From positions 62,001-126,000 of the forward strand of contig NZ_KB898872.1 in the NCBI RefSeq assembly GCF_000377905.1: a DNA stretch of 64,000 bases, in the 5' to 3' direction. Below the pieces are notes generated by a model. That model searched no databases and was not told the DNA's origin. It saw only the letters and a list, made by a program, of their open reading frames with translations. This DNA is from Thioalkalivibrio sp. ALMg11 (GTDB taxonomy: Bacteria; Pseudomonadota; Gammaproteobacteria; Ectothiorhodospirales; Ectothiorhodospiraceae). This document shows positions 50,214 to 64,000 of the stretch, one piece after another. Numbering within the stretch: position 1 is the first letter of the stretch; every line of letters begins with the position of its first letter. The position numbers were made by a program, and so were the translations under genes.

Positions 50214-50978
50214 TCAGTCGTTGTCCATGCCGCGATAACGCCGCACATGCGCCGGGTCGTACAGGGCACTATCGCGGAAATCCCCCGGATCCAGCGCCGG
50301 CCCCACCAGGATCAGCGCCGAGCGCCGCGTGGTCAGCTGCGTTGCCCGCTCCACGATATTGCCCAGCGAGCCCCGCACCACCGTCTCGTCCGGCCAGCTG
50401 GCACGGAAGACGATCGCCACCGGACAGTCACAGCCATAGTGCGGACGCAGGTCCGCGACCACGGCCTCGATATTGTGCAGGGACAGGTGGATCGCCAGGG
50501 TTGCCCCGGTCGCAGCGAAGGCCGCCAGCCGTTCGCGTTCCGGCATCGACGAGGCCCGCCCCGGCGTCCGCGTCAGCACCACCGACTGCGCCACCTCCGG
50601 CACGGTCAGCTCGCGCCCCAGGGTCGCGGCCGCAGCGGAGAATGCCGGGACCCCCGGGGTAATCGTGTAATCGATCCCGGCCGCCTCCAGACGGCGGATC
50701 TGCTCGCCCAGCGCGCTGTACACCGACAGGTCCCCGGAGTGCAGTCGCGCCACGTCCTGACCCGCCGCGTGGGCGCGCTGGATCTCGTCCATGATCGCGT
50801 CCAGCGTCAGCGGCGCGGTATTCACGATGTGCGCGCCTTCCGGAGCATGCTCCAGCACCGCCTCCGGCACCAGCGAACCCGCGTACAGGCATACCGGACA
50901 GGCCGCGATACGATCCCGCCCGCGCAGCGTCAGCAGATCCGCCGCGCCCGGGCCCGCCCCGACAAAATGAACCGTCAT
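50214..50978 (-). CDS. cobM: precorrin-4 C11-methyltransferase CobM
   Basis: SAM-dependent methyltransferase giving precorrin-5. It is 254 residues with [18 protein letters not shown] at the start, [15 protein letters not shown], and [15 protein letters not shown], typical of CobM/CbiF. AAGGAG lies 5 nt before the ATG at 50978, which overlaps the cobE stop as ATGA. It is the last gene of the cob run. Confidence 0.95.
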
Positions 50979-51448
50979 GATGACTCCTTGAATACGTGAT
51001 GGGTATCGACCCGGGCCACCGCGCAACTGGCCCGCGCGGACAGACGCCGCGGCAGCAGCAGACGCGCGCCCTCGCCGGCCACCGCCAGCGCCGCCGCCTC
51101 GGCCACCGACCCGACCCCGGCGGTTGTACGCGCCCGCGCCGACTCCGTAAGCACTTCCTCGTCGCAGTCCACCAGCGCAGACGCAGACGGAAATACGAGT
51201 TCCAGCTCCAGCTCCCGCGCCACCGACGCCAGCATGGGGCTGTCGCTCTTGTGCGCCGGTGCCGCCAGCTGCCGGATCTCGATCGGCTCGACGCGCGCTG
51301 CATCCAGCACGGCGCGGACCTCGGCCAGCACCTCGCGGATCAGGCCCTCCAGCTCCCGGGCCGTGCAGGCCGAGGCGAAGCCGACGCCGGGCACCACCCG
51401 GTCGAGCGCACCGTTCAGTGCCGCCCTCAACTCCGGCGCAGGGACCAC
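50975..51448 (-). CDS. cobE: CobE / CbiG C-terminal domain protein
   Basis: A 157-residue protein matching the CbiG C-terminal domain (CobE of the aerobic route). [17 protein letters not shown] and [21 protein letters not shown] are the hallmarks. The CbiG N-terminal domain is absent. The start is a GTG at 51448, which overlaps the cobL end by 22 nt. It could act with CbiD in C1 methylation and C2-fragment loss; this is inference. Confidence 0.88.
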
Positions 51449-52671
51449 AGGGTCACCGGCCGCAGCGGTTTCCAGCCCGACATCGCGCCCAGCGGTTCCG
51501 AACGGCTCACGCTGATGCGCGTCAGCTCGCCGCGATGGCGCTCGCGCGCCGCCGCCAGCACCGCATCGCCCTCGACCGTCACGCTGTTCGCGACCAGGCG
51601 CCCGCCCGGGCGGAGGCTCTCCACACAGTGCTCCACCAGCCCCGGGGTCGTCAGGCCGCCGCCGATGAAGATCGCGTCAGGAGGCGCCAGGCCGTCCAGT
51701 GCCTCCGGTGCGCGCCCGGGGATGCATTGCAGGGCCGGCACACCCAGGGCGCGCGCATTGCGCGCGATGCGTTCCAGCCGCTCCGCGCGCGGCTCGATGG
51801 CCAGGGCGCGGTTGGCCGGATCCGCCAGCATCCACTCGATGCCGATGGAACCGGAGCCGGCGCCGATGTCCCACAGGCACTCGCCGCGCCCGGGCGCCAG
51901 CAGAGCCAGTGTCACCGCACGGACCTCGCGCTTGGTGATCTGCCCGTCCTGTTCGAACTGCGCCTCCGGTCGGCCGGCGCTGGCCGCGATCACCGGGGCC
52001 GTCGGGGCCACCGGGGAGGCGCGACATTCCAGCGCGATCGTGTTCAGCGGATCCACCTCGCGAGCGCCCCAGTCCGCCGCCGTGGTCGCGCCAATGCGCT
52101 CCCGGGCCCCGCCCAACTGCTCCAGGACCGTCAGGGCCGAGGCCCCGAAACCCAGGTCATTGAGCCAATGGGCCAGCTCGCCGGGGGTCTCGCCGTCGCG
52201 GCTCAGGATCAGCAGCCGCGCGCCGTCGTGCAGCCAAGGGCGCAGCGCTTCCAGCGGGCGCCCGTGGACCGACAGGCAGCGGGTCTCCTGTAACGGCCAG
52301 CCCATCCGCGCGGCGGCCAGGCTGAATGCCGAGGGCGCCGGAAACACCCGGGTGGCCGCCACCGGGAAACGCCGCATCAACGTCGCGCCCACCCCGAACC
52401 AGAACGGGTCGCCACTGGCGAGCACGCACAGCGGCTGCCCCGCCCGCGCCTCGATCCAGTCGAGGGCGGTCTCCAGCGGCGAGGGCCACACCAGACGTTC
52501 CTGCCCTGGCTGCTCCGGCAACATCTCCAGATGCCGTGCACCCCCGATCACCGTGGTCGCCTGCGCCACGGCCGCACGGGCCTCCGGCGCCAGTCCGGAC
52601 AGACCGTCCGCACCGACCCCGACGATGTGCAACCATGGCGTCCCGCCCGGCTGCGTCGCTACACTTGGCAT
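51427..52671 (-). CDS. cobL: precorrin-6B C5,15-methyltransferase (decarboxylating) CobL
   Basis: Bifunctional 414-residue enzyme. The CbiE-like N-terminal half ([40 protein letters not shown]) methylates C5/C15. The CbiT-like C-terminal half ([20 protein letters not shown]) methylates and decarboxylates. The ATG at 52671 has GGGAGG 8 nt upstream; an ATG at 52677 is possible and would overlap the divergent cobK start. Confidence 0.95.
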
Positions 52672-52675
52672 CTCC

Positions 52676-53476
52676 ATGACCTCCCGTTCACCCCTTTCCA
52701 ACGACGCCCGGCCACCGCGCCCGCGGCATGTCCTCCTGCTGGGCGGCACCACCGAGGCCGCGGCCCTGGAGCCGCTGCTGGACGGCCACCCGCGGCTGCA
52801 GTCCACCGTCTCGCTGGCCGGGCGCACCCGGAAACCGGGCCCGTCGCGGCTGCCACGGCGCACGGGCGGTTTCGGCGGCGCCGAGGGCCTTGCCAGCTGG
52901 CTGCACGAACACGCGGTCGACGCCCTGGTGGACGCAACCCACCCGTTCGCGCGGCAGATCTCGGCCAACGCCGTCGCGGCTGCGCGCCAGACCGGTATCC
53001 CGCTGGCCCGCCTGACCCGACCGTCGTGGGAGGCCGGAGCGGATGACAGATGGATCCGCGTGTCCGATCTCGCGGCCGCCGGCCGCACCCTGCCGGCACT
53101 CGGCCGGCGCGTGCTGCTGACCACCGGCCGCCAGCACCTTGAGGCCTTCGAGGCCGCGCCCGAACTGGACTATGTCATCCGCACCATCGACCCGCCCGAA
53201 CCGCCGCCGGCGCTGCCACGGGTCACCTGGATCCATGCCCGGGGCCCGTTCGCGGCGGAGGACGAGGCGCGCCTGCTGCGGGAACACGCGATTGACGTTC
53301 TGGTAACCAAGGACAGCGGCGGCGAGGCCACCGCCGCCAAGCTGCAGGCAGCCCGCGAACGGGGTATCCCGGTGGTGATGGTGGAGCGCCCGCCGGACGC
53401 CCCCGGGGTGCCACGGTTCCACGCCCCGCAGGCGGTACTCGACTGGCTGGAAGCGCTCCCGGACACCCACGGCTAG
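52676..53476 (+). CDS. cobK: precorrin-6A reductase CobK
   Basis: NADPH-dependent reductase, 266 residues. HVLLLGGTTEAAAL, DATHPFARQISANA and TKDSGGEATAAKL are family marks. It is the only plus-strand cob gene here: divergent from cobL with essentially no gap, and convergent with cobJ (14-nt gap). Its promoter must lie within cobL. Confidence 0.95.
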   Translation: MTSRSPLSNDARPPRPRHVLLLGGTTEAAALEPLLDGHPRLQSTVSLAGRTRKPGPSRLPRRTGGFGGAEGLASWLHEHAVDALVDATHPFARQISANAVAAARQTGIPLARLTRPSWEAGADDRWIRVSDLAAAGRTLPALGRRVLLTTGRQHLEAFEAAPELDYVIRTIDPPEPPPALPRVTWIHARGPFAAEDEARLLREHAIDVLVTKDSGGEATAAKLQAARERGIPVVMVERPPDAPGVPRFHAPQAVLDWLEALPDTHG

Positions 53477-53489
53477 AGCGGGTCCCGGC

Positions 53490-54275
53490 TCATTCCGCCG
53501 CCTCGACATAACGCGGGGTGTACACGTGCCGCCGGCCCGAAGGGCGTTCCAACACGCGGGTGGATGTGGCGCCGACGATCACCAGCGTGCTCATATTCGC
53601 CGCCGCCGGGTCCACCTCGCCGAGGGTGGAGATCTGCACGTCTTCGCGTTCGCCACGTCCCACCGCAGTGGCCAGCACCACCAGGGTGTCCGGCCCCTGG
53701 ACCTCGCGCACGATCCCCAGTGCCTCGCCCAGCTGCCAGGGTCGCGCGCGCGAGATCGGGTTGTAGAAGGCCATGGCAAAATCGGCCTCGGCCGCCAGCC
53801 GCACCCGGCGCTGGATCAGCGACCAGGGCTTGAGATTGTCCGACAGCGAGATCACGCAGAAATCGTTCCCCAGCGGCGCCCCCAGCCGCGCGGCGGCGGC
53901 CTGCATCGCCGAAACCCCGGGGGCCACGTCCACCTCGACGTCCTCCCAGCGTCCCGCCGGTGCCCCTTCCAGGGCCTCGAAAATGGCCGCCGCCATCGCG
54001 AACACACCGGGATCGCCACCCGAGACCACCGCCACGTCCCGCCCCTCGGCGGCCATGTCCAGGGCGTGCGTCGCGCGCGCCAGCTCCTCGCGGTTGTCCG
54101 AGGCGTGAACACGGTGATGCGCGCCCGCAATGCGTTCCAGGTACGGCCCGTACCCCACCAGGTCGGTCGCCGCTTCAAGACGGGCAGCAACCTCCGGCGT
54201 AAGCCATTCCGGCCCGGCCGGCCCCACCCCGAGCACACTCAGCCGCCCGAGCGGCCGACCGTCATCCCCGCTCAT
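53490..54275 (-). CDS. cobJ: precorrin-3B C17-methyltransferase CobJ
   Basis: Ring-contraction methyltransferase, 261 residues. LSVLGVGPAGPEWLTP, VVSGGDPGVFAMA, APGVSAMQAAAARLGAPLG and AFYNPISRARPWQ are characteristic of CobJ/CbiH. Its ATG overlaps the cobI stop by 4 nt. Confidence 0.96.
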   Translation of the reverse strand: MSGDDGRPLGRLSVLGVGPAGPEWLTPEVAARLEAATDLVGYGPYLERIAGAHHRVHASDNREELARATHALDMAAEGRDVAVVSGGDPGVFAMAAAIFEALEGAPAGRWEDVEVDVAPGVSAMQAAAARLGAPLGNDFCVISLSDNLKPWSLIQRRVRLAAEADFAMAFYNPISRARPWQLGEALGIVREVQGPDTLVVLATAVGRGEREDVQISTLGEVDPAAANMSTLVIVGATSTRVLERPSGRRHVYTPRYVEAAE

Positions 54276-55027
54276 CGCCGCACCCCTCGCCCGGGAATCA
54301 CGATCATCGAGAAATAGGGCACCTGCTCCGGGATCTCGTCCAACGGCAGGACCCGCTCCTCCGGCGTGCTCGCGCGTTCCACGTACCAGGCACGCTCGTC
54401 CAGCCCCAGTTCCCGCAGGACCCCGACCACCGCATCGCGATGGGTTCCAACCTTCATGATGACCGCAGCATCGGTCCCCTGCAGGGCCTGGCGCAGATCG
54501 TCGATCGGCATGGTGCCCGGGATCACCGTCAGCAGGTCATCGCGCATGGTCAACGGCGTGGGCAACTGCGCGGCGGAGGCCATCATGGAGGTCACGCCGG
54601 GCACGATGCGGGTGGGGAAACGCTCCTTCAGCCGCAGGTAGACGTGCATGAAGGAGCCGTAGAAGAACGGGTCCCCTTCGTTCAGCACCACCACCGAACG
54701 CCCGGCCCCCAATTCGGCGGCCAGCTGCTCGGCGGCGGCGTCGAAAAACTGCTCGATGCGGCTGCGATACTCGTCGGAGCCGTGCGGGATCTCGTTGGTC
54801 ACCGGATACTCCAGCGGCATCTCGCGCTGCCCGGCACCCAGATGGGCATCCACGATGGCACGCGCCTGGCCGCGGCCGCCCCGGCGACAGAAGTAGGCCA
54901 CCACCGGGCTCTCGGCAATCAGCCGCGCGGCCTTCAGCGTCAACAGCTCGGGATCACCGGGACCGGTGCCCACGCCGTACAGACAGCCCGCGTCCGAGGA
55001 ATCCTGCAGGTTGGGGGATGTCGTCAT
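54272..55027 (-). CDS. cobI: precorrin-2 C20-methyltransferase CobI
   Basis: 251 residues. YGVGTGPGDPELLTLKA, VVLNEGDPFFYGSFMHVY and VPGVTSMMASAA match CobI/CbiL. It accepts precorrin-2 from CobA and yields precorrin-3A for CobG. It overlaps cobH and cobJ by 4 nt each. Confidence 0.96.
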   Translation of the reverse strand: MTTSPNLQDSSDAGCLYGVGTGPGDPELLTLKAARLIAESPVVAYFCRRGGRGQARAIVDAHLGAGQREMPLEYPVTNEIPHGSDEYRSRIEQFFDAAAEQLAAELGAGRSVVVLNEGDPFFYGSFMHVYLRLKERFPTRIVPGVTSMMASAAQLPTPLTMRDDLLTVIPGTMPIDDLRQALQGTDAAVIMKVGTHRDAVVGVLRELGLDERAWYVERASTPEERVLPLDEIPEQVPYFSMIVIPGRGVRR

Positions 55028-55677
55028 ATCCGGTCACTCGCAAAGGCGTTGATGGCCGCCGCGGCCATGGCACTGCCACCCCGGCGTCCGAAAATGGTCA
55101 GGTAATCGAGGTTCAGCGGGCTGCTGGCCAGCGCCTCCTTGCTCTCCACCGCACCCACAAATCCCACTGGTATACCGAGCACGGCGGCCGGCCGCGGCGC
55201 ACCCTGGTGCAGCATTTCCAGCAGGTGAAACAGCGCCGTGGGTGCATTGCCAATGGCCACGACCGCGCCGTCCAGATGCGGTCGCCACCATTCCAGCGCC
55301 GCGGCCGAACGCGTCGTTCCCAGACGCTCGGCGGCCGCCGCCACCCCGTCCTCCCGCAGGCTGCAGATCACCCGGTTGTCCGCCGGAAGCCGGGCCCGCG
55401 TGACCCCGTGCGCCACCATGTTGCTGTCGCACAGGATCGGCGCGCCGGCGGCCAGCGCATCCATGGCCGCCCGGGCCACCCGGGCGGAAAACCCGACGTC
55501 CCGCGGCAGATCGGTCATGCCGCAGGCATGGATCATGCGTACCACCGCGGGCACCAGGTCCTCCGGAAAGCGGTCGAGATCCGCCTCGGACCGGATCATC
55601 GCAAAGGACTCCCGGTAGATGGCCGCCCCGTCGCGGATATAGTCGGGTACGGCCCCGGCCGTATCGCTCTGTGTCAT
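55024..55677 (-). CDS. cobH: precorrin-8X methylmutase CobH
   Basis: 217 residues from MTQSDTAG. DYIRDGAAIYRESFAMIRSE, MIHACGMTDL (catalytic His), CDSNMVAHGVTR and GIPVGFVGAVESKEAL are all present. It moves the C11 methyl to C12 to give hydrogenobyrinate. It overlaps cobG by 4 nt. Confidence 0.96.
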   Translation of the reverse strand: MTQSDTAGAVPDYIRDGAAIYRESFAMIRSEADLDRFPEDLVPAVVRMIHACGMTDLPRDVGFSARVARAAMDALAAGAPILCDSNMVAHGVTRARLPADNRVICSLREDGVAAAAERLGTTRSAAALEWWRPHLDGAVVAIGNAPTALFHLLEMLHQGAPRPAAVLGIPVGFVGAVESKEALASSPLNLDYLTIFGRRGGSAMAAAAINAFASDRI

Positions 55678-57068
55678 GCTGAATCTCCGTTGTTCATCTT
55701 TGCGTTCATCCACCGGGTCAGTGCCGTGCCCTCCAACTGTTGCAGGGCCTCGATCCTCGACTCATTCGCGCCACACTCTTCACGGGCAACCGTATCGAGG
55801 GCCGTAAGGGCCGACTCGACCTGCCCGGGTCTCAGCCTCGTCAGGACGGTCTCCCATTGCGCGGGCGCGCGTTGCAGCGACAGGTCGTAACGACCTTCCC
55901 GCGCCGTGAGCAGGACCTGTGCGTTTGCGGGGCGCCCGCAGTGCTTGTCGCAGCCACTGACGTGCACATGCCCGCCACCCGCAAGCAGCCCGCGGGCAGA
56001 TGCCCCGGCCGTCTCCGCATCCTCCCGCGTGTACGTACTGCCCGCGGAGCAACCCACTTGCCCGATACAGGCACTCACCGCCAGGCGAGAATCATTCGGG
56101 TCGGTCACACCGCCCCACTCGGCGACCCGGGCTGATTCCACCGGTGATGCCCCGGTCACGAGCAGGCTGCGCCACGGTGTCAGCCGCAAGCGTCCGTCGT
56201 GCGGCCGGATATGTTCGGCCATGCCCTGCAGGGCCTCCGCGCGCAGGGCCCCGAACGGAAACGCGATCCCGAAGGCTCGCCCGTTCAGGCACGTACCCAT
56301 CCCGGCATCCGCGCATCCGGGCATCCGGGCCGCGACCCAGTCCCCGCCCGGGAGCACCCGCTCCAACCCCGGCGGGGTCAGCACATTCAGGCCGAACCGG
56401 GCCACGGCACCGGCCACCCGCCCCGGCGGATCCACCTCGCCTTCGCGCAATTCCACGAAGCGTTCGAGCACCACCAGGGCGACGTCCACGACCTTCTCCG
56501 GGCGCGTCCAGCCAAGCACCGTGGCCGTGCGACTGGACGCGCCCACAGCCACCCGAAACCACACCCCTCCCAGCCCCGCACAGGCCTCCAGCCGCAGGTC
56601 CGCCGGCACTCCATCCAGCGGCAAATCGCCGCCGGCCTCTACCAGCACCCCTACCTTCGGCGGCAGCGCCCGCAGACGCGGGTGCTCCCCCAGCGCCCGC
56701 GCGAGGTCCCGCGCGACCGGCTGTACATCCATGGCCGCCTCCGGATCGATATCCGTCACCGGGGCCACCAGGACATTGCGCACCGCCTCCACCGCGGGAT
56801 CGCGATCGGCCAGACCCGCGTTCTCCAGCTCGGCACGTGCCGGCTCCAGATCCGCCGTGTCCAGACCGCGCAACTGCAGATTGCCGCGGCTAGTCAGCTC
56901 CAGGGCACCGGAACCAAAGCGACGCGCCACCTCCGCGAGGGTCTGCGCCTGCTCCGCATCCAGCCCCCCGATCGGGTGACGTACCCGCATCAGCAGACCG
57001 TCCCCGGTGCTCATCGGCGCGGCAACCCCCGGACAGGCCTGGCGCACCCGCGGACGATCGGCAATCAC
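55674..57068 (-). CDS. cobG: precorrin-3B synthase CobG
   Basis: A 464-residue relative of sulfite/nitrite reductases that hydroxylates precorrin-3A with O2. Two ferredoxin-like repeats are seen (GALELTSRGNLQLRGL and DGRLRLTPWRSLLV), and the [4Fe-4S]-sirohaem-type cysteines in CIGQVGCSAG and GCDKHCGRP. It marks the aerobic route. The GTG at 57068 is chosen by position after the permease stop (57088); the frame opens further upstream inside that gene. Confidence 0.93.
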   Translation of the reverse strand: MIADRPRVRQACPGVAAPMSTGDGLLMRVRHPIGGLDAEQAQTLAEVARRFGSGALELTSRGNLQLRGLDTADLEPARAELENAGLADRDPAVEAVRNVLVAPVTDIDPEAAMDVQPVARDLARALGEHPRLRALPPKVGVLVEAGGDLPLDGVPADLRLEACAGLGGVWFRVAVGASSRTATVLGWTRPEKVVDVALVVLERFVELREGEVDPPGRVAGAVARFGLNVLTPPGLERVLPGGDWVAARMPGCADAGMGTCLNGRAFGIAFPFGALRAEALQGMAEHIRPHDGRLRLTPWRSLLVTGASPVESARVAEWGGVTDPNDSRLAVSACIGQVGCSAGSTYTREDAETAGASARGLLAGGGHVHVSGCDKHCGRPANAQVLLTAREGRYDLSLQRAPAQWETVLTRLRPGQVESALTALDTVAREECGANESRIEALQQLEGTALTRWMNAKMNNGDSA

Positions 57069-57087
57069 GACTTCACCCTGCCCGCGC

Positions 57088-57861
57088 TCATGTGCGGATC
57101 CGCACGCCGCGCGCCACCAGGGCCCAGGCCAGCCCACCGACGACGAGCGTCGCCCCCACGAGGACCCAGAAGGTCGTGGCCCAGGCGAAGGACCCGGTCC
57201 CCAGCAGGCCGTAGCGAAAGCCCTCGATCATGTAATACAGCGGGTTCAGCACCGCCAACGACTGCCAGGGCTCGGGCATCCGTTCCACCGGGTAGAACAG
57301 GCCTCCCAGGTAGATCAGCGGGGTCAGCACGAACGTGGCCACTACGGAGGTATGGTCAAAGCTGCGCGCATACAGGCCGTTCAAGAGCCCGGCCAGCGCG
57401 AACAGCAAGGCACTGATCAGCGCGATCCCCAACGTGGCCGCCAGGTGGTGCAGCTGGAGATGGGTAAACGGGATCGCCACCAGCGCCACCAGCGCCCCGG
57501 CCAGCAGCCCGCGGATCACGCCACCGGTGGCGAAGCCCGCCACAATCAGCCAGGCGGGCAGCGGCGCGACCAGCAGCTCCTCGATATGCCGCTGCAGGCG
57601 GGCGCCGTAGAACGCCAGCGTCACATTGCTGTAGGCATTGGTGGCAACCGCCAGGATGATCAGGCCGGGCAGGATGAAATCGGCGTAGTCGACCCCCCGC
57701 ATGGTGCCCAGTTCGCGCCCGATCAGATGACCGAAGATCACCAGGAACAGGACGGTCGTCACCACCGATGGCAGGAGGTTCTGCACCCAGGCCCGCAGGA
57801 ACCGGCGCACCTGCTTGACCACCATCCCGCGATAGGCGAATGCGTAGGCCGCGAGTCTCAT
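57088..57861 (-). CDS. ABC-2 type transporter permease
   Basis: A 257-residue membrane protein with six hydrophobic segments. It resembles YadH-type permeases (FADFILPG-like segment DYADFILPGLI, GLFYPVERMPEPWQ, NPLYYMIEGFRYG). It pairs with the preceding ATPase, overlapping it by 4 nt. Such systems usually export lipids, polysaccharides or drugs. Why it sits inside the cob operon is unknown. Confidence 0.9.
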   Translation of the reverse strand: MRLAAYAFAYRGMVVKQVRRFLRAWVQNLLPSVVTTVLFLVIFGHLIGRELGTMRGVDYADFILPGLIILAVATNAYSNVTLAFYGARLQRHIEELLVAPLPAWLIVAGFATGGVIRGLLAGALVALVAIPFTHLQLHHLAATLGIALISALLFALAGLLNGLYARSFDHTSVVATFVLTPLIYLGGLFYPVERMPEPWQSLAVLNPLYYMIEGFRYGLLGTGSFAWATTFWVLVGATLVVGGLAWALVARGVRIRT

Positions 57862-58802
57862 GCCCCGGCCCCTTGCAGTGCGTCCGCGCGTTTCGCAATG
57901 CGCTGCAGGAATAGCGACTCGAGCCGGTTGCGCTTGTTGCGCAGTCCCGCGACCCGGACCCCGCTTCCGCCCAGGCGATCGAACAGGTCATTGACCTCCA
58001 TGCCCTGCGGGAGATCGATCTCCAGGGTCCAGGTATCCACCAGACGGGTCGCCAGCCCCTCCAGGACCGGGGCCGCGTCCAGAGGCGCATTCAATTCCAG
58101 CACCAGCGTCTGCACGTTCAGACCGTGCAGCAGCTCGCCGGTCTCGCCGCGCGCGACGATCTCGCCCTGATCCAGGATCGCCAGCCTGTCGCACAGGCTC
58201 TCGGCCTCCTCCAGATAGTGGGTGGTCAGGAGGATCGTCACGCCATCCGCGTTCAAGCCGCGCAGCAGCTCCCAGGTTGCATGGCGCCCCTCCAGGTCCA
58301 CTCCCGCCGTCGGCTCGTCCAGCAACAAAACGCGAGGGCGATGCACCAGGGCGCGGGCAATCATCAGCCGGCGCTTCATGCCGCCCGACAGGCCCCAGGC
58401 CGACTGTTCGCGCCGGTCCAGAAGACCCGCCTGTTCCAGCACCTCGCCGGTTCGTTCGCGCGCCCGCCTCGGGGACAGCCCGTAGTAGGCCGCCTGGGCC
58501 TCGACGATCTCGCCCACCGGCTCGAAGCTGTTGAAATTCACCTCCTGCGGCACCACGCCCATGCACGCCTTCGCCGCCACCGCCTGCGTGGCCACATCGT
58601 GCCCGCAGACCCGGATCGAACCGCGATCCGCCCGCACCAGCGTGGTCAACAGCCCCACCAGGGTGGTCTTGCCGGCCCCGTTCGGACCCAGCAGGCCGAA
58701 AAAGCTGCCCGCCGGCACCTCCAGATCCACGTTCGCCAGCCCGACCCGGCCACCGGCGTAGCGCTTGGCTACCGACTGCAGGGCGATCGCCGCGGCCGTC
58801 AT
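57858..58802 (-). CDS. ABC transporter ATP-binding protein
   Basis: A 314-residue ATPase, YadG-like. Walker A GPNGAGKTT, Q-loop VVPQEVNF, signature LSGGMKRR, Walker B LLLDEPTAGVD and the switch His in LLTTHYLEEAE are intact. It has a ~90-residue C-terminal extension. It is coupled to cbiD upstream and the permease downstream through 4-nt overlaps, so it is expressed with the cob genes. Confidence 0.93.
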   Translation of the reverse strand: MTAAAIALQSVAKRYAGGRVGLANVDLEVPAGSFFGLLGPNGAGKTTLVGLLTTLVRADRGSIRVCGHDVATQAVAAKACMGVVPQEVNFNSFEPVGEIVEAQAAYYGLSPRRARERTGEVLEQAGLLDRREQSAWGLSGGMKRRLMIARALVHRPRVLLLDEPTAGVDLEGRHATWELLRGLNADGVTILLTTHYLEEAESLCDRLAILDQGEIVARGETGELLHGLNVQTLVLELNAPLDAAPVLEGLATRLVDTWTLEIDLPQGMEVNDLFDRLGGSGVRVAGLRNKRNRLESLFLQRIAKRADALQGAGA

Positions 58803-59944
58803 GGCGCAAGGCCCCTGGCGCCATCGGCAAACCCGACGATGCGCCCCGCCCGATCCACCGCGCAGACCTCCAGCGCCGTGGTCTCCGGCAACATCCCGCG
58901 GGCTCGCTGCCAGGCGCGTGCACTAATCCGGTCGGCCAGGGCCACGCCCTGTTCCAGGCAATCCGCAAGGGCCTGGGCACTGGTGTTGGCCGCGCGGATG
59001 CGCGCCACCAGGTCCGGGCTGGCGCCCAGATCCGCGGCTTCCTCCGCCAGGGCGTCGAGATCGATGCGCGACTTGCGGCTATGCGCATCCAGGTGCCCGG
59101 CCGCGAACTTGCTGAGTTTGCCGAAACCCGCGGCCAGCACCACCGCGGGCAGGGGGTGGCGCCGCAGGTACTTCAGCGCCGCCCCGAACAGATCCCCCAT
59201 CTCGATCAGCGCGATGTCGTCCAGGCCGTAGCGTTCACGCACCGCCGCCTCGCTGGTGCCGCCGGTACAGCAGGCCACGCACGGACAATCGTTGGCGCGG
59301 GCCACGTCGATGGCCTGATGGATGGATGCGATATAGGCGGCGCAGGAAAACGGGCGCACGATCCCCGTGGTGCCCAGGATCGAGAGACCGCCGAGGATGC
59401 CCAGGCGGGCGTTCATGGTCCGCTCGGCAATCCTTTCGCCCCCATCCACCCCGACCGTGACCCGGAAGCCCCCGCTGTAACCGGTCGCCTCGGCAAGCGC
59501 CTCCAGATGCCCCTGCATCATGCGTCGCGGGACCGGGTTGATCGCCGGCTCGCCCGGCGCCAGCACCAGGCCCGGACGCGTGACCGTCCCGACCCCGGCA
59601 CCCGCCATGAACACAACGCCAGGTGCACCACACAGGGTCACCTCGACCCAGACCCGAGCCCCGTGGGTGGCATCCGGGTCATCGCCGGCATCCTTGATGA
59701 CCCCGGCGACCGCGCCACCCGGGGTGGGCTCCAGATCGTTCAACGCCAGGCGCACGACCTGCCCCCTCGGCAGGGTGACCTCGACCGTCTCGAGCCGCCG
59801 CCCCTCCAGCAGCCAGCGTGCGCCGGCCACGGCGGCCACGGTCGCGCAGACACCGGTGGTCAGGCCGGTGCGCAGGCGCCCGGTTGTCTCGCACGTCTCC
59901 GGGCGCATGCCGCCCTCCGCACTGTAGCGATCAGCCGACTTCAT
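58799..59944 (-). CDS. cbiD: cobalt-precorrin-5B (C1)-methyltransferase CbiD
   Basis: 381 residues. TGLTTGVCATVAAVAGARWL, GGFRVTVGVDGGERIAERTMNARLGILGGLSILGTTGIVRPFS-type segments and LAAGFGKLSKFAAGHLDAHS identify CbiD. It belongs to the anaerobic route, yet the neighbours are aerobic-type; cobF is not seen. The ATG at 59944 overlaps the cobA end by 14 nt; an ATG at 59908 is an alternative. Confidence 0.93.
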   Translation of the reverse strand: MKSADRYSAEGGMRPETCETTGRLRTGLTTGVCATVAAVAGARWLLEGRRLETVEVTLPRGQVVRLALNDLEPTPGGAVAGVIKDAGDDPDATHGARVWVEVTLCGAPGVVFMAGAGVGTVTRPGLVLAPGEPAINPVPRRMMQGHLEALAEATGYSGGFRVTVGVDGGERIAERTMNARLGILGGLSILGTTGIVRPFSCAAYIASIHQAIDVARANDCPCVACCTGGTSEAAVRERYGLDDIALIEMGDLFGAALKYLRRHPLPAVVLAAGFGKLSKFAAGHLDAHSRKSRIDLDALAEEAADLGASPDLVARIRAANTSAQALADCLEQGVALADRISARAWQRARGMLPETTALEVCAVDRAGRIVGFADGARGLAP

Positions 59945-60785
59945 GCGTCCCCGGCCCGGGCTCGAAGCCCGGCGTGGCAATCGTCTCGCGCAGGCGCACC
60001 ACCTCGCCCACGATCAGCAACGCGGGCGACTGGATGGCCAGATCCGCAACCCGCGCGGGAAGGTCCGCCAGCGTGCCCTCGATGACGCGCTGCGTCGGGC
60101 GCGTGCCCTGCTCCACCAACGCGGCCGGCATCGCGCCATCCGCGCCCGCCGCCATCATCTCGCCGCAGACCTCGGCCAGGGTGTGCAGCCCCATGTAGAC
60201 GACCAGGGTCTGCTGCGGATGGACCAGCGAGGCCCAGTCCAGATCGGTCTCGCCGGCGCGGCGATGGGCGGTCACGAACTGGCAGCGATAGGCATGATCG
60301 CGATGGGTCAACGGGATCCCGGCATACGCCGCGCAGCCACCCGCCGCGGTGATCCCCGGCACGATGCGGACCGGGATCCCGGCCGCGGCGATCGCCGCCG
60401 CCTCCTCGCCGCCGCGACCATAGACGAACGGGTCCCCACCCTTCAGGCGCACCACGTAGTGCCCCTCCCGCGCCAACGCGATCATGCGCTCGTTCAGGTC
60501 CCCCTGATCGCAGCTGTGCCGTGAGCGTGCCTTGCCCACGTACAGCCGCTGCGCCTCCGGGTTCGCCAGATCCAGGATCGCATCCGGGATCAGGCGGTCG
60601 TGCAGCAGGATGTCGGCGTGCTGCATCGCAGCCACCGCGTCCAGTGTCAGCAGACCCGGATCGCCCGGCCCGGCGCCGACCAGATCCACGCAGCCGGCCC
60701 GCCGCTCGCCGCCCAGCCGGATGCTGGCCCCGGCGCGTGCCCCCGGTCCGATCCGCGTCACATTATCCCGCTGCGCATCACTCAT
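59931..60785 (-). CDS. cobA: uroporphyrinogen-III C-methyltransferase CobA
   Basis: 284 residues. VDLVGAGPGDPGLLTLDA, VRLKGGDPFVYGRGGEE and VPGITAAGGCAAYAGIPLTHR are classical SUMT motifs. It makes precorrin-2, the first committed step. It lacks the CysG oxidase/chelatase domain, so it is a dedicated cobalamin enzyme. Its ATG overlaps the cobB stop by 4 nt. Confidence 0.96.
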   Translation of the reverse strand: MSDAQRDNVTRIGPGARAGASIRLGGERRAGCVDLVGAGPGDPGLLTLDAVAAMQHADILLHDRLIPDAILDLANPEAQRLYVGKARSRHSCDQGDLNERMIALAREGHYVVRLKGGDPFVYGRGGEEAAAIAAAGIPVRIVPGITAAGGCAAYAGIPLTHRDHAYRCQFVTAHRRAGETDLDWASLVHPQQTLVVYMGLHTLAEVCGEMMAAGADGAMPAALVEQGTRPTQRVIEGTLADLPARVADLAIQSPALLIVGEVVRLRETIATPGFEPGPGTHEVG

Positions 60786-62074
60786 GGCTGAAACAGCTGC
60801 GCCGTGGCCTCGGGGTTGGACGGGAACCAGGCGTGCAGATAGGTCGCGCTCAGGCGACCATCTCGATAGATCGCCTCCCCCTGCGACCCCGTCCCGCGGG
60901 CCCGCCAGCAATGGCCGTAGGGTTCCAGGCCGACCTCGGAGCGGGTGTGGTGGAAGGTGTGTCCACGCAACTCGCCCTCCGGCAGCGGGGCCGCCTGGAG
61001 ACCCAGGCCCTGCAAGCGGTCCGCCAGCTGGGCCTTGCCCGGCACCAGTCCGGCCATGGCCGCGGTGTGGCCCTCGCGGTCGGCCAGTTCATCCAGCAGA
61101 TAGAGGAAGCCCCCGCACTCCGCCAGGATAGGGCGACCGGCCGCATGGTGGGCCTCCAGGTCCGACTTCAGAGCGGTATTGGCGGCCAGTTGATCCAGAT
61201 ACAACTCGGGGTAGCCGCCCGGGAGCCAGACGGCATCGGCCTCCGGCAGCCCATCCCCGGCAAGCGGGGAAAAGAACCGCAGTTCGGCGCCCATCTTCTC
61301 CAGCAGACGCAGATTGGCCGGATACATGAACGCGAAGGCCGCATCCCGTGCAATCGCGACGCGTACGCCGGACAGGGTCGCCGTGATCGGCGCGATCGCT
61401 TCCGGATGAAAGGTCACGGGCTCCGGGAGGCCCGTCACGCCGGCCTCTTCGATCGCGGCCGCGGCGGCCTCCAGCCGCGCATCCAGGTCGGCGATCTCGC
61501 CCGCCTGGACCAGGCCCAGGTGACGATCCGGGACACTCAGCGTCTCGTTGCGCTGCACGGCGCCGAAGAAGCGGATTGCGTCCGGGGTGCAGTCCTCCAG
61601 CATCCGGGCATGCCCCGGGCTGCCCACCCGGTTGGCGATCACGCCGGCGAATGACAAGCCCGGGCGATAGGTCGACAAGCCGTGCACCAGCGCCCCGAAG
61701 GTCTGCCCCATACCGCTGGCATCCAGGATCGCCAGGATCGGCAACCCGAAGGCCTGGGCCAGATCCGCGCCGGAGGGATCCCCGTCGAACAGCCCCATCG
61801 ATCCCTCCACCAGGATCAGGTCGGACGTCTGTGCCGCCTCGTACAACATCGCCCGGCAGGCGGCCTCGCCCACCATCCACAGATGCAGCGCATCCACCGG
61901 GTGGCCGGAGGCCTGCTCCAGGATCATCGGGTCGAGGAAGTCGGGGCCGGTCTTGAACACGCGCACGCGCCGGCCCTGGTTGCGGTGGTAGCGGGCGATG
62001 GCGGCGGTGATCGTGGTCTTGCCCTGGCCCGAGGCCGGGGCCGCCACGAACGCGGCGGGACAGCTCACGCTCAC
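60782..62074 (-). CDS. cobB: cobyrinate a,c-diamide synthase CobB
   Basis: ATP- and glutamine-dependent amidotransferase, 430 residues. The N-terminal P-loop (APASGQGKTTITAAI) and the C-terminal class I glutaminase-like domain with the catalytic Cys in ILAECGGFLYL are present; FHHTRSE follows. It starts with GTG, overlapping the cobO stop by 4 nt. Confidence 0.96.
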   Translation of the reverse strand: MSVSCPAAFVAAPASGQGKTTITAAIARYHRNQGRRVRVFKTGPDFLDPMILEQASGHPVDALHLWMVGEAACRAMLYEAAQTSDLILVEGSMGLFDGDPSGADLAQAFGLPILAILDASGMGQTFGALVHGLSTYRPGLSFAGVIANRVGSPGHARMLEDCTPDAIRFFGAVQRNETLSVPDRHLGLVQAGEIADLDARLEAAAAAIEEAGVTGLPEPVTFHPEAIAPITATLSGVRVAIARDAAFAFMYPANLRLLEKMGAELRFFSPLAGDGLPEADAVWLPGGYPELYLDQLAANTALKSDLEAHHAAGRPILAECGGFLYLLDELADREGHTAAMAGLVPGKAQLADRLQGLGLQAAPLPEGELRGHTFHHTRSEVGLEPYGHCWRARGTGSQGEAIYRDGRLSATYLHAWFPSNPEATAQLFQP

Positions 62075-62685
62075 AGCTCGATCCCCTTTTGCGCCTTGAT
62101 GCCGGCCTGGAAGGCGTGCTTGACCACACCGATCTCGCTGACGGTATCGGCCGCCTCGATCATCGCCTTGGGCGCGGCGCGGCCGGTGGTGATCACGTGC
62201 TGCATCGGCGGGCGGTTGGCCAGTTCTTCAAGGACCTCGGCCACGTCGAGGTACTGGTATTTCAGCGCGATGTGCAGCTCGTCGAGCAGCACCAGATCGA
62301 CGTTTGGGTCGCGCAGCATGTCGCGGGCATGCGCCCAGGCATCGCGGGCGGCCTCGACATCCTTCTCGCGGTCCTGGGTCTCCCAGGTGTAGCCCTCGCC
62401 CATCACGTGGTACTGCACGTTGTCCTGACCGCGGAAGAAGGCCTCCTCGCCGGTGGCGAACTGCCCCTTGATGAACTGGACGATGCCCACCTGCATGCCG
62501 TGCCCCAGGGCACGGGCGACCATGCCGAAGCCGGAGGAGCTCTTGCCCTTGCCGTTGCCGGTCAGGATCAGGAAAACCCCCTTCTCCTCCTGGGCCTCGG
62601 CGATCTTGCGGTCCACGACCTCCTTCTTGCGTGCCATGCGCTGGGCGTGGCGTTCGGCTCGAGCCGCTTCGGTGTCTTCGCTCAT
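62071..62685 (-). CDS. cobO: cob(I)yrinic acid a,c-diamide adenosyltransferase CobO
   Basis: 204 residues of the CobA/CobO/BtuR family. The P-loop is LTGNGKGKSSSGFG; VQFIKGQF and VLLDELHIALKY are conserved. It adds the adenosyl ligand to Co(I) corrinoid. An AAGGAG ribosome binding site lies upstream. Confidence 0.96.
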   Translation of the reverse strand: MSEDTEAARAERHAQRMARKKEVVDRKIAEAQEEKGVFLILTGNGKGKSSSGFGMVARALGHGMQVGIVQFIKGQFATGEEAFFRGQDNVQYHVMGEGYTWETQDREKDVEAARDAWAHARDMLRDPNVDLVLLDELHIALKYQYLDVAEVLEELANRPPMQHVITTGRAAPKAMIEAADTVSEIGVVKHAFQAGIKAQKGIEL

Positions 62686-62744: not shown

Positions 62745-63035
62745 CTATTCGCCGATCAGGATCATCCGTCCGGTCTCCGGATCGCGGTAGACCTGCCCCA
62801 TGGATTCGTAGCCCGAGCCGGCCTCGCCGGCCCCTTCGGGTGGGTCCGGGATCTCGCGCCCGGGCTCGATCTCGGCGCCGCCACTGGCCGGCTCCAGCCC
62901 GCCGCCCGATGCGGCCATCACCACCATCAGGCCGACGGCAAACACCAGCATGATGTCGGCCAGATTGGCCAGCGGGCCCATCGGCTCCTCGTCGGGCGCG
63001 TCGAAGCGCGAAGCGCGGTAGTGCGGGACCCTCAT
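62745..63035 (-). CDS. DUF2149 protein (ExbD/TolR-like topology)
   Basis: A 96-residue protein: a short N-terminus, one membrane helix (~22-42), then a Gly/Glu/Pro linker and a small C-terminal domain (MGQVYRDPETGRMILI). The helix reads NLADIMLVFAVGLMVVM, in which the Asp and the spacing match the proton-path Asp of ExbD/TolR (VDVMLVLL-type). It overlaps the ExbB-like gene by 4 nt and precedes cobO by 59 nt. Confidence 0.85.
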   Translation of the reverse strand: MRVPHYRASRFDAPDEEPMGPLANLADIMLVFAVGLMVVMAASGGGLEPASGGAEIEPGREIPDPPEGAGEAGSGYESMGQVYRDPETGRMILIGE

Positions 63036-63475
63036 GCCGCCGCCTCCATACGCTCCATCGCCGCGTCATACCAGCGCCGGCGCAACCGCCCGAGCAGGAA
63101 GCCGAGGATGCCAACCAGCAGCCCCAGCACCGTGGTATTGAAAGCCACCGTAACGGCCTGGGCGAGGATTTCCAGTTCGCCCCGGCCCATCGCGGCCAGC
63201 CCCGGACCCAGCGGGATCAACGTCCCCATCAGCCCGAGCATCGGGCCGATGCGCGCCAGCAGATCGGCGCGGTCGATGCGCCGCCGGGCACGGTAAGCGA
63301 GGCGTTCGGCATCGCCGCTCAATTCCAGACGGCGTACCCCACCGGAGCGTTCACCCAGTGCCAGCCCGAGCTCCCAGACGGCGACCGCGACCAGCACCAG
63401 CAGGCCAACGATCACTGGCTCCAGCAGCCAGCGCACCACGGTGTCCATCAGTTCCATCGTGATCGAGAACGACAT
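63032..63475 (-). CDS. MotA/TolQ/ExbB-family proton channel subunit
   Basis: A 147-residue protein with three membrane helices: ~15-38, ~82-103 and ~113-137. ARIGPMLGLMGTLIPLGPGL and LAQAVTVAFNTTVLGLLVG are the conserved TM2/TM3 segments of the ExbB/TolQ fold. It pairs with the ExbD-like DUF2149 protein and lies downstream of a CobN-like gene, suggesting a proton-driven machine dedicated to cobalt or corrinoid handling. Confidence 0.9.
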   Translation of the reverse strand: MSFSITMELMDTVVRWLLEPVIVGLLVLVAVAVWELGLALGERSGGVRRLELSGDAERLAYRARRRIDRADLLARIGPMLGLMGTLIPLGPGLAAMGRGELEILAQAVTVAFNTTVLGLLVGILGFLLGRLRRRWYDAAMERMEAAA

Positions 63476-63528
63476 TCGCGTTACCTCATTAACCTTTGTT
63501 CAGCCATTCGTACGGCCTTCCGTCCTGC

Positions 63529-63597
63529 GTAGGAGGCCAGCCTCTGGCCGATGGGGTGTAACCATTGCCCCAATCGCCGAGAGGGCTCGGCTCCTAC
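63529..63597. repeat. paired REP-like repeat (BIME-type)
   Basis: Two inverted units meet tail to tail: GTAGGAGGCCAGCC...GATGGGG (63529-63556) and its inverted partner ending GGCTCGGCTCCTAC (63568-63597). Each holds a small stem (GGCCAG/CTGGCC and GCCGAG/CTCGGC). It fills the 151-bp gap between the cobN-like gene and the ExbB-like gene and could trim or stabilise the mRNA there. Confidence 0.7.
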
Positions 63598-63626
63598 AAG
63601 TACAGGGTCGAAAATGCCCATGGCGG

Positions 63627-64000
63627 TTATCGCCGCCGGCCCGCAGCAATACCGGCGAGTAGCAGCAGGAACAGCGCACCAGCCACCAGCCAGGGGAGCC
63701 AGGGCATGCCCGCCGCCTCGTCGCCGGTCTCCTGACCGCCGTCGGCCTCGGCCGGCTCGGGGATCTCCTGCGCCTCCTGCGCGGTAGGGTCTTCCAGCGG
63801 CTGGATCTCGGTGACGCGACTGGGGTCGGCCTCGGGCTCCGCCCGGTCGATCTGCGCGGCCGCCCGCACCGCCTCGAAGGCCGCGCGCAGCTCGGCGTCG
63901 TCCAGGCGCTCGGCCACCTCGTCCAGCATGGGGTGATCCGGGCGCGTGTGACCGCTGCCGGGCAGGCCGTGCTCGGCGACCAGTTCCGCGAAGCGCTCGG
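63627..64000 (-). CDS. cobN: C-terminal end of a CobN-like cobaltochelatase large subunit
   Basis: An open frame enters from the right edge and stops at 63627, giving 123 residues. It begins ERFAELVAEHGLPGSGHTRP, similar to the end of CobN proteins (…H-T…N/D-P-x-L). An acidic Pro/Glu linker and a C-terminal membrane helix (PWLPWLVAGALFLLLLAG) with a GRRR end follow. A tail anchor is not part of soluble aerobic CobN. The name rests on context and the short match; most of the protein is outside the window. Confidence 0.65.
   Translation of the reverse strand, partial: ERFAELVAEHGLPGSGHTRPDHPMLDEVAERLDDAELRAAFEAVRAAAQIDRAEPEADPSRVTEIQPLEDPTAQEAQEIPEPAEADGGQETGDEAAGMPWLPWLVAGALFLLLLAGIAAGRRR

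Follow-up and report, generated by a model that had tools for sequence, protein, structure and literature searches.

Positions 62,745 to 64,000 of the DNA stretch analysed here (Thioalkalivibrio sp. ALMg11, contig NZ_KB898872.1, positions 62,001 to 126,000; 64,000 nucleotides, hereafter the window) raise the question of what a gene pair resembling a proton motor does beside a CobN-like gene in a cobalamin (vitamin B12) operon. The original prediction for this region described a CobN-like C terminus with a membrane helix, an ExbB/TolQ-type protein and a DUF2149 protein encoded head to tail, and coordinates, Pfam matches (PF01618 and PF09919) and hydropathy agree on all three. The answer favored here, with about an even chance of being correct, is that an exported chelatase relative of the CobN type, driven by a dedicated ExbB'-DUF2149 proton motor, handles the metal of corrinoids in the periplasm. 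In what follows, ExbB' denotes the ExbB/TolQ/MotA-family protein of the pair, own-type denotes the type of CobN found in the window, and the own genome is the genome of the window. The features of the module are as follows:

63627-64000, minus strand: exported CobN-like protein, last 123 codons and stop; the full gene reaches 68180, outside the window, and encodes 1517 amino acids (aa) (L001:7628-12181)
63642-63698, minus strand: C-terminal transmembrane helix of the CobN-like protein, residues 1495-1513, followed by GRRR at the C terminus; hydropathy peak 2.31 (2.17-2.43 in 13/13 same-genus relatives)
63032-63475, minus strand: ExbB/TolQ/MotA-family proton-channel protein (ExbB'), 147 aa; PF01618, E-value 2.2e-10, 40.8 bits against a cut-off of 22.9
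62745-63035, minus strand: DUF2149 protein, 96 aa, single transmembrane helix; PF09919, 35.9 bits against a cut-off of 27.1
62955-62957, minus strand: Asp27 codon in the DUF2149 helix, ExbD-like position; motif in 80/80 loci, column without variation in alignments A6 and A7, each of 62 rows

The frame at the right edge of the window (63630-63998) has by itself no match to a Pfam family. The region to the right was read for 11 kb past the edge (L001), and the complete gene belongs to the CobN family, as had been proposed from its last codons. Three stretches of its product match PF02514 (366, 244 and 193 bits), and the nearest solved structures are those of HmuS (9d26, E-value: 2.6e-99), CobN (9uk9, E-value: 2.3e-98) and ChlH (E-value: 4.2e-95). 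The NCBIfam CobN equivalog cut-offs are missed (best model 576.5 bits against 1619; TIGR02257 520.6 bits against 822). The hydropathy profile has only two strong segments: a signal-like segment at residues 8-26, with an AxA-like site at its end, and the C-terminal helix at residues 1495-1513, followed by RRR. Both recur in 13 same-genus relatives. The signal peptide, which is encoded outside the window, was not part of the original prediction, and because of it the chelatase-like body of the protein is predicted to be periplasmic; these export and anchor calls rest on hydropathy rather than on a dedicated signal-peptide predictor. The protein thus differs from the large subunit of a CobNST-type enzyme, which is cytoplasmic and has neither export signal nor anchor.

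The DUF2149 protein has a single N-terminal helix with a conserved Asp (Asp27), an arrangement typical of ExbD and TolR. In the predicted structure this helix spans residues 20-42 (local confidence 85-96). The ExbD-type Asp of the helix motif NLADIMLV had been pointed out previously, and its presence in all 80 loci described below bears this out; Asp27 may be the proton carrier of the protein. The ExbB' and DUF2149 reading frames share 4 bases. In comparisons with solved structures, the ExbB' alignment had no match at an E-value of 0.01 and the DUF2149 alignment had only matches with E-values of 0.43 or worse. Alignments A6 and A7 include 61 of the 80 DUF2149 rows. A genome search with PF09919 overlooked the own DUF2149 gene, which the protein scan caught, and so the PF09919 search is not a reliable census.

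Export of the CobN relative goes together with the motor genes. An ExbB' alignment was scanned against one genome each for 84,980 species, which gave at least 505 relatives, and the best 80 loci were kept. As this search used one peptide pattern containing the ExbB' Thr, the conservation of that Thr in 80/80 loci is circular and was not used. DUF2149 adjoins ExbB' in 80/80 of these loci and a CobN relative is present in 70/80 (that of L145 is a fragment on the opposite strand at a contig end). The threshold for a C-terminal helix is passed by 57 of the 59 complete CobN open reading frames (ORFs) in the 80 loci, the other two being those of L150 (helix score 0.95) and L122, which ends 20 bases short of the contig end. 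Among 33 CobN-family loci from the genus, family and class, an ExbB match is present in all 17 whose CobN has a C-terminal helix (maxima 1.47-2.43) and in none of the 16 whose CobN has no such helix (at most 0.49).

The expectation that the three genes are inseparable across genomes therefore held for ExbB' and DUF2149 and only in part for CobN. Eight genomes with CobN-less loci were searched (of ten such loci, L126 and L146, at contig edges, were left out), and six of the eight have PF02514 genes elsewhere. Four of these six are Cupriavidus or Ralstonia genomes, each with one cytosolic-type and one exported CobN away from the pair; the exported CobN genes of G098 and G102 are truncated by contig ends, with the anchor region out of view. 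In three Cupriavidus/Ralstonia loci (L094, L095 and L105), an RND-pump-like gene lies beside ExbB'-DUF2149 and the exported CobN is elsewhere.

One genome, G274, constitutes a natural experiment in which CobN anchor and ExbB' are absent together. Its own-type CobN (L199 7911-12101) keeps the signal peptide and is without the C-terminal helix. The btuF gene begins 7 bases before the end of CobN, so that there is no space there for ExbB', and the best ExbB' match in this genome, which is rated 100% complete, scores 29 bits (122-164 bits in three other own-type genomes).

The operon itself indicates the pathway that the module serves. A cobalamin riboswitch (RF00174, 86.6 bits against a gathering score of 31.5) lies upstream of btuB and, together with the cob genes, confirms that this is a cobalamin operon. 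The order is riboswitch-btuB-pduO-cobN-exbB-DUF2149-cobO-cobB, with all genes on the minus strand and neighbors either overlapping by 4 bases or separated by no more than about 150 bases. The PduO-type adenosyltransferase and BtuB-like receptor genes, which like the riboswitch are situated upstream of cobN and beyond the window, are additions to the original prediction. The receptor is most similar to TIGR01779 (BtuB; 534.6 bits), below the equivalog cut-off of 599.7. The same gene order recurs in 13/13 same-genus loci fetched and so is not due to chance, and a cobalamin riboswitch was found in 5/5 same-genus loci scanned. A promoter and terminator scan returned one promoter-like and eight terminator-like sites (shuffled mean 3.8), some of them near the cobN start; it was given no weight.

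The relationship of the window CobN to other exported CobN proteins was assessed with a tree of 87 proteins: 60 CobN rows of more than 1200 aa from the 80 loci, 11 more anchored proteins and 16 cytosolic proteins (L063, a split ORF, L068 and shorter fragments were excluded). In this unrooted FastTree tree, which has long branches, anchored (71) and cytosolic (16) proteins are split by one branch with a support of 99. Own-type proteins, from the genus and Zoogloea oleivorans, are placed between the other anchored and the cytosolic CobN proteins; which side is nearer depends on the root, and the branch joining them to the anchored side is short (0.04). A profile of the own type detects such proteins in 8/398 sampled Pseudomonadota genomes. 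The motif GRHST[RY]EF occurs in 22/22 own-type proteins (the own protein and 21 others) and is absent from the CobN ORFs of the 80 loci.

Own-type loci also share a genetic context. The seven from other genera encode a receptor (4), BtuF and BtuC (3), CobB (5), CobO (5), CobQ (3) and BluB (4), along with ExbB' (6) and DUF2149 (6). A cobalamin riboswitch is present in 6/7, including one that barely exceeds the cut-off (33.5 bits against 31.5), and Z. oleivorans has its own riboswitch for the module and a second one before the downstream receptor. No Rfam match of any kind was found in the other anchored-CobN loci scanned (0/14), and homologues of the nine reference cob genes are absent from all 80 ExbB' loci. 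The module is part of the B12 regulon, and the window CobN is, judged by its sequence, a member of a distinct B12-linked branch. Under cobalamin riboswitches and beside CobB or CobO, three loci also encode a membrane protein of about 190-220 aa (L201 14168-14737, L202 17089-17697 and L204 5409-6083). This protein, which had no Pfam match in the two loci of the three that were scanned, is possibly a BtuN-type transporter.

Since the operon encodes a BtuB-like receptor, the pair might instead energize BtuB. The anchored CobN-like protein would in that case not be an enzyme but would stand in for TonB or carry corrinoids in the periplasm. A TonB-dependent-receptor-like ORF is present in 61/80 loci. 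The papers cited here by PMC number are represented by excerpts, to which all statements about them apply; in these, HmuU/HmuV are said to power HmuR (PMC12583661, EMBO J) and PA1924 is proposed to be part of a TonB pathway (PMC4542158). However, TonB, ExbB and ExbD are each encoded above the Pfam cut-off in L054 and L057, separate from the ExbB'-DUF2149 pair next to the anchored CobN (the ExbB' of L057 itself scores 19.0 bits, below the ExbB cut-off of 22.9). Of the 80 loci, 10 contain a TonB- or ExbD-like ORF. Because L054 and L057 have this separate set, ExbB'-DUF2149 is probably not the motor of TonB and the receptor, and the notion that the module is simply the TonB system of BtuB is weakened. 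The joint lack of anchor and ExbB' in G274 points in the same direction. In addition, chelatase-type active-site motifs are conserved in own-type proteins, and no receptor was called at L094, L095, L105 and L108, the first three of which have the RND-pump-like gene. Energization of BtuB is on this evidence an unlikely function of the pair.

The active-site motifs are a mixture of conserved and divergent positions. The His of the first motif is retained (H679, in the context YVGRHSTREF; HmuS has an HFG(T/A)HG motif with His538). The second active site has an Asp-Asp pair as in CobN, whereas HmuS has Asp-His; across genera, the pair is DD or ND in nine aligned own-type proteins. The HmuS motif LSLDHxxEFMGG, which includes His1209, is absent (the own protein reads LLDNDDGFDFQGG), and the position of His1209 is occupied by Asp in the own protein and in 8 own-type proteins aligned to it (residue roles in HmuS are from PMC12583661). 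A His-rich insertion begins at about residue 815, in the body of the protein. It is confined to the genus, where 13 relatives have 15-26 His per 60 residues, and neither a His-rich nor a Met-rich insertion is found in 8 own-type proteins from other genera. The His-rich insertion of the genus and the Met-rich insertion of HmuS domain IV probably occupy corresponding places.

These residues bear on a second alternative, in which the module is an HmuS-like de-chelatase that removes the metal from imported tetrapyrroles with the power of the motor, so that Co(II) or a different metal is freed in the periplasm. Among exported members, HmuS alone has a demonstrated activity in the cited literature (PMC12583661), and it is, by a small margin, the best match of the own CobN in the Protein Data Bank. 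Relatives are under metal-starvation control, by an iron-dependent stimulon (PMC10434189) or Zur (PMC4542158), where control here is by B12. De-chelation is nevertheless quite unlikely for the window protein, given the Asp at the His1209 position and the lack of a Met-rich insertion. A DH pair occurs in 10/71 anchored proteins, none of them own-type (18/71 did not match the search pattern). Furthermore, the neighbors CobB and CobO act on retained rings, and removal of cobalt from a corrinoid is chemically hard. The ten anchored CobN proteins with the HmuS-like Asp-His pair form one clade of the tree (L057, L124, L151, L152, L155, L159, L161, L164, L165 and L166) and are themselves candidate heme de-chelatases outside Bacteroidota.

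Whether the module serves corrin-ring synthesis can be asked of the genomes that carry it. In the own operon, transcription continues after cobB through cobA, cbiD, an ABC-2 transporter, cobG, cobH, cobI and cobJ and then the remaining ring enzymes. The features of this part of the window are as follows:

62071-62685, minus strand: CobO-type cob(I)yrinic acid a,c-diamide adenosyltransferase; NF004637, 281 bits against a cut-off of 185
60782-62074, minus strand: CobB, cobyrinic/hydrogenobyrinic acid a,c-diamide synthase; NF002204, 418 bits against a cut-off of 254
59931-60911, minus strand: CobA, uroporphyrinogen-III C-methyltransferase; TIGR01469, 280 bits against a cut-off of 185
58799-59980, minus strand: CbiD; TIGR00312, 399 bits against a cut-off of 200
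57088-58802, minus strand: ABC-2 type transporter in the cobalamin operon (ATPase 57858-58802, permease 57088-57861); PF01061, E-value 9.9e-36
55674-57137, minus strand: CobG, precorrin-3B synthase, marker of the late cobalt-insertion pathway; TIGR02435, 282 bits against a cut-off of 234.8
50214-55713, minus strand: CobH, CobI, CobJ, CbiET (CobL), CbiG C-terminal-type protein (CobE) and CobM
about 52706-53476, plus strand: CobK

The own genome makes the ring by the late pathway, CobG being above its cut-off. This is not the rule among own-type genomes. Precorrin-8X methylmutase (CbiC/CobH), which is required by both ring pathways, was searched for in 13 of the 22 own-type genomes. Of these, only the own genome and that of Z. 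oleivorans have it; the 11 that lack it comprise four genomes of this genus and one from each of seven other genera, the latter seven all with a completeness rating of 100%. With the remaining nine genomes, all of this genus, scored by the presence of CbiD, 11 of the 22 are without ring synthesis and 11 have it. The module occurs in 14/30 genus genomes, including all 10 that bear CbiD. Because half of the own-type genomes lack ring synthesis, a role as a de novo cobaltochelatase and nothing more is ruled out as the shared one, and corrinoid or cobalt acquisition fits better as the common role of the module than ring building. Cobalt insertion, corrinoid uptake and chelatase recycling had all been suggested for this locus; the first of these, as part of de novo synthesis, does not stand as the shared role.

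The own genome, which is rated 99.96% complete, was also examined for other chelatases. It has no second PF02514 locus and no ChlI/ChlD (PF01078) beyond a 517-aa ComM-like ORF and two matches of about 20 bits, which are above the cut-off only when joined with neighbors. CobT (PF06213) was found in one of the 30 genus genomes, the own one, among element-type genes. This match was rejected as a partner of CobN, as it lies beside a CbbQ-type AAA+ gene in an apparent integrated element and the 29 other genus genomes have none. The region concerned (L083 8046-9881 and 14342-15325, on C3 of the own genome) encodes a CobT-like VWA protein and a CbbQ-type AAA+ ATPase, and ParM-like and topoisomerase-like genes are seen nearby by eye. 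CbiX matches of 20-22 bits occur in 8/30 genus genomes, 7 of them reaching the cut-off when joined with neighbors; the match in the own genome is a ferrochelatase (PF00762, 387 bits). Given the late pathway of the own genome, and as the searches there turned up no other cobaltochelatase (CbiK was not searched for, nor CobS genome-wide), the module may additionally provide the cobalt-insertion step in this genus. The stronger version, in which the module is the true de novo cobaltochelatase of the genus and hydrogenobyrinate a,c-diamide is exported (perhaps by the ABC-2 transporter of the operon), receives its metal in the periplasm and returns through BtuFCD, would accord with the late pathway in the window, the single PF02514 locus, the ChlI/ChlD and CbiX results, the co-occurrence with CbiD in the genus and the BtuFCD-like set of the own genome, but it is very unlikely, as the module is kept without ring synthesis in four genus genomes and seven other genera and such a two-way membrane trip of a precursor is, to our knowledge, unprecedented.

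Two further observations concern the distal part of the operon. The exporter-like ABC-2 transporter between cbiD and cobG is also present in 8 other genus loci, all those fetched far enough. The window and the same-genus loci (L038-L050) have two versions of CobB, which are 75-77% identical between groups and 89-100% within them (G006 and G012 excluded). The CobB version correlates with whether the ring-synthesis block lies downstream; across both groups, ExbB and DUF2149 are 94-100% identical and CobO is 85-100% identical. Given two CobB versions beside such uniform ExbB, DUF2149 and CobO proteins, the distal half of the operon seems to have been exchanged by recombination.

The favored reading, that of a proton-driven, exported chelatase relative acting on corrinoid metal, starts from an energetic problem. 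The periplasm is without ATP. In the TonB-ExbB-ExbD design, an ExbB-type ring and an Asp-bearing partner serve a client that is held by a single transmembrane helix. Cytoplasmic class I chelatases are powered by AAA+ partners (PMC7689651). Taken together, these points lead to the proposal that the ExbB'-DUF2149 pair passes proton-motive force to the chelatase relative via its C-terminal helix.

The proposed model is as follows; its conditional elements are the flow of protons, the transfer of force, the substrate and the direction. A ring of ExbB', with DUF2149 in the role of ExbD, would form a dedicated proton motor for an inner-membrane-anchored class I chelatase relative. The body of the CobN-like protein would lie in the periplasm, out of reach of ATPases of the CobST or ChlID type, and its C-terminal helix would most likely dock on ExbB'-DUF2149 as the TonB helix does on ExbB-ExbD. 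Proton flow via the DUF2149 Asp would then power the conformational work that is done by ATP in CobNST. The module would most likely adjust the metal of BtuB-imported corrinoids before they reach the inner-membrane importer, CobB and CobO. For the B12 branch, cobalt insertion or repair is favored because of the CobN-like active-site pair and the neighboring CobB and CobO; removal, as in HmuS, would be possible too.

A broader form of the model is that class I chelatases have a proton-driven form, in which ExbB'-DUF2149 takes the place of the AAA+ motor. With it, bacteria without ring synthesis would import incompletely metallated rings (e.g. hydrogenobyrinic acid) via BtuB and use proton-motive force to add the cobalt in the periplasm; the product would then be brought into the cell and completed by CobB, CobO and CobQ. 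This extension is tentative and, taken as a whole, unlikely.

Several results weigh against the model. The 80 loci were selected by similarity and one short pattern and are not a random sample. Two metagenome bins (G100 and G103) have ExbB'-DUF2149 and no CobN family gene was found in them. Conversely, the exported CobN of G274 appears intact in a genome where no ExbB' was found, and some members thus manage without it. The CobN-like protein is near-tied in its similarity to HmuS, CobN and ChlH (336.8, 333.7 and 322.9 bits). The DUF2149 protein has no ExbD family match (family scan, E-values up to 10) and its periplasmic part is poorly predicted (pTM 0.30). Finally, recombinant HmuS reportedly converts ferroheme without motor partners (PMC12583661), and the motor may therefore be dispensable for the chemistry.

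The original interpretation is thus partly supported, and its statement that no mechanism has been demonstrated for such gene groups is shared here. If the chelatase relative is proton-driven, its need for mechanical work would be separated from ATP itself. The model would also provide a job for ExbB/DUF2149 pairs which, in the excerpts, are deemed unknown or taken for transport components of the heme (hmuU/hmuV) and zinc (PA1924/PA1925) operons. The occurrence of the B12 branch in ring-less genomes raises the question of whether unfinished or metal-free corrinoids are scavenged; nothing on this was found in the titles and abstract openings of the papers listed. Nor did the literature search, which covered few subscription papers, find work joining a class I chelatase with proton-motive force, and the excerpts of PMC13227078, PMC7689651, PMC3403914, PMC4542158 and PMC10434189 contain no statement that an ExbB/DUF2149 pair drives a chelatase.

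The closest known systems are the hmuYRSTUV operons of Bacteroides thetaiotaomicron and Porphyromonas gingivalis, which likewise combine an exported, anchored CobN-like protein (HmuS), a TonB-dependent receptor and MotA/TolQ/ExbB and DUF2149 proteins in one operon (PMC12583661, PMC10434189, PMC13227078). HmuU is ExbB-like and HmuV is without a known family; HmuTUV are presumed to be heme importers, with an influence on HmuS activity left possible (PMC13227078). The hmu system differs in that it deals with heme and iron and has the DH pair and Met-rich insertion, whereas the window system deals with B12 and has DD/ND pairs, a cobalamin riboswitch and cob genes. The genes of the window operon include none seen to resemble HmuY or HmuT, although no search was aimed at them.

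BtuS was, according to PMC6460266, proposed in 2003 as a third type of CobN. BtuS1 and BtuS2 of Bacteroides fragilis are also exported, membrane-anchored CobN-like proteins (topology in PMC6460266), and BtuS has been described in Methanosarcina barkeri (PMC10846266). In Pseudomonas aeruginosa, the metal-starvation operon PA1921-PA1925 comprises a receptor gene, a CobN-like gene, an ExbD-annotated gene and another hypothetical gene (PMC4542158; PA1922-1925 are also covered in PMC10393844 and PMC13083405). It differs in its zinc/Zur control, and the likeness is drawn from the published description rather than from a gene comparison. Similarly, the cobN-exbB-exbD-tonB genes of Geobacter lovleyi plasmid pSZ77 place CobN and ExbB/ExbD-like genes near cobalamin genes without CobS or CobT (PMC3403914). 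These are described there as transport genes with no role assigned to CobN, and are again likened by description and not by sequence.

CobNST and ChlHID share the large-subunit family PF02514 with the window protein, which in addition has a late B12 pathway around it. Unlike their large subunits, the window protein is exported and anchored, and AAA+ partners were not found except for the element-borne CobS/CobT-like pair, in this genome alone (CobS was not searched genome-wide). TonB-ExbB-ExbD and TolQ-TolR resemble the motor pair in joining an ExbB-family protein to a single-helix partner with a conserved Asp, but DUF2149 has no match to the ExbD family, both sets occur together in L054 and L057, and the client is apparently a chelatase relative. 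An exported CobN with a motor pair is therefore already known as a kind (HmuS/BtuS; PA1922-1925). What the window system adds to it is a branch under cobalamin riboswitches, half of whose 22 genomes are without ring synthesis, one genome in which anchor and ExbB' are absent together, the coexistence of a separate TonB set in two loci, and the reading of the pair as a dedicated motor.

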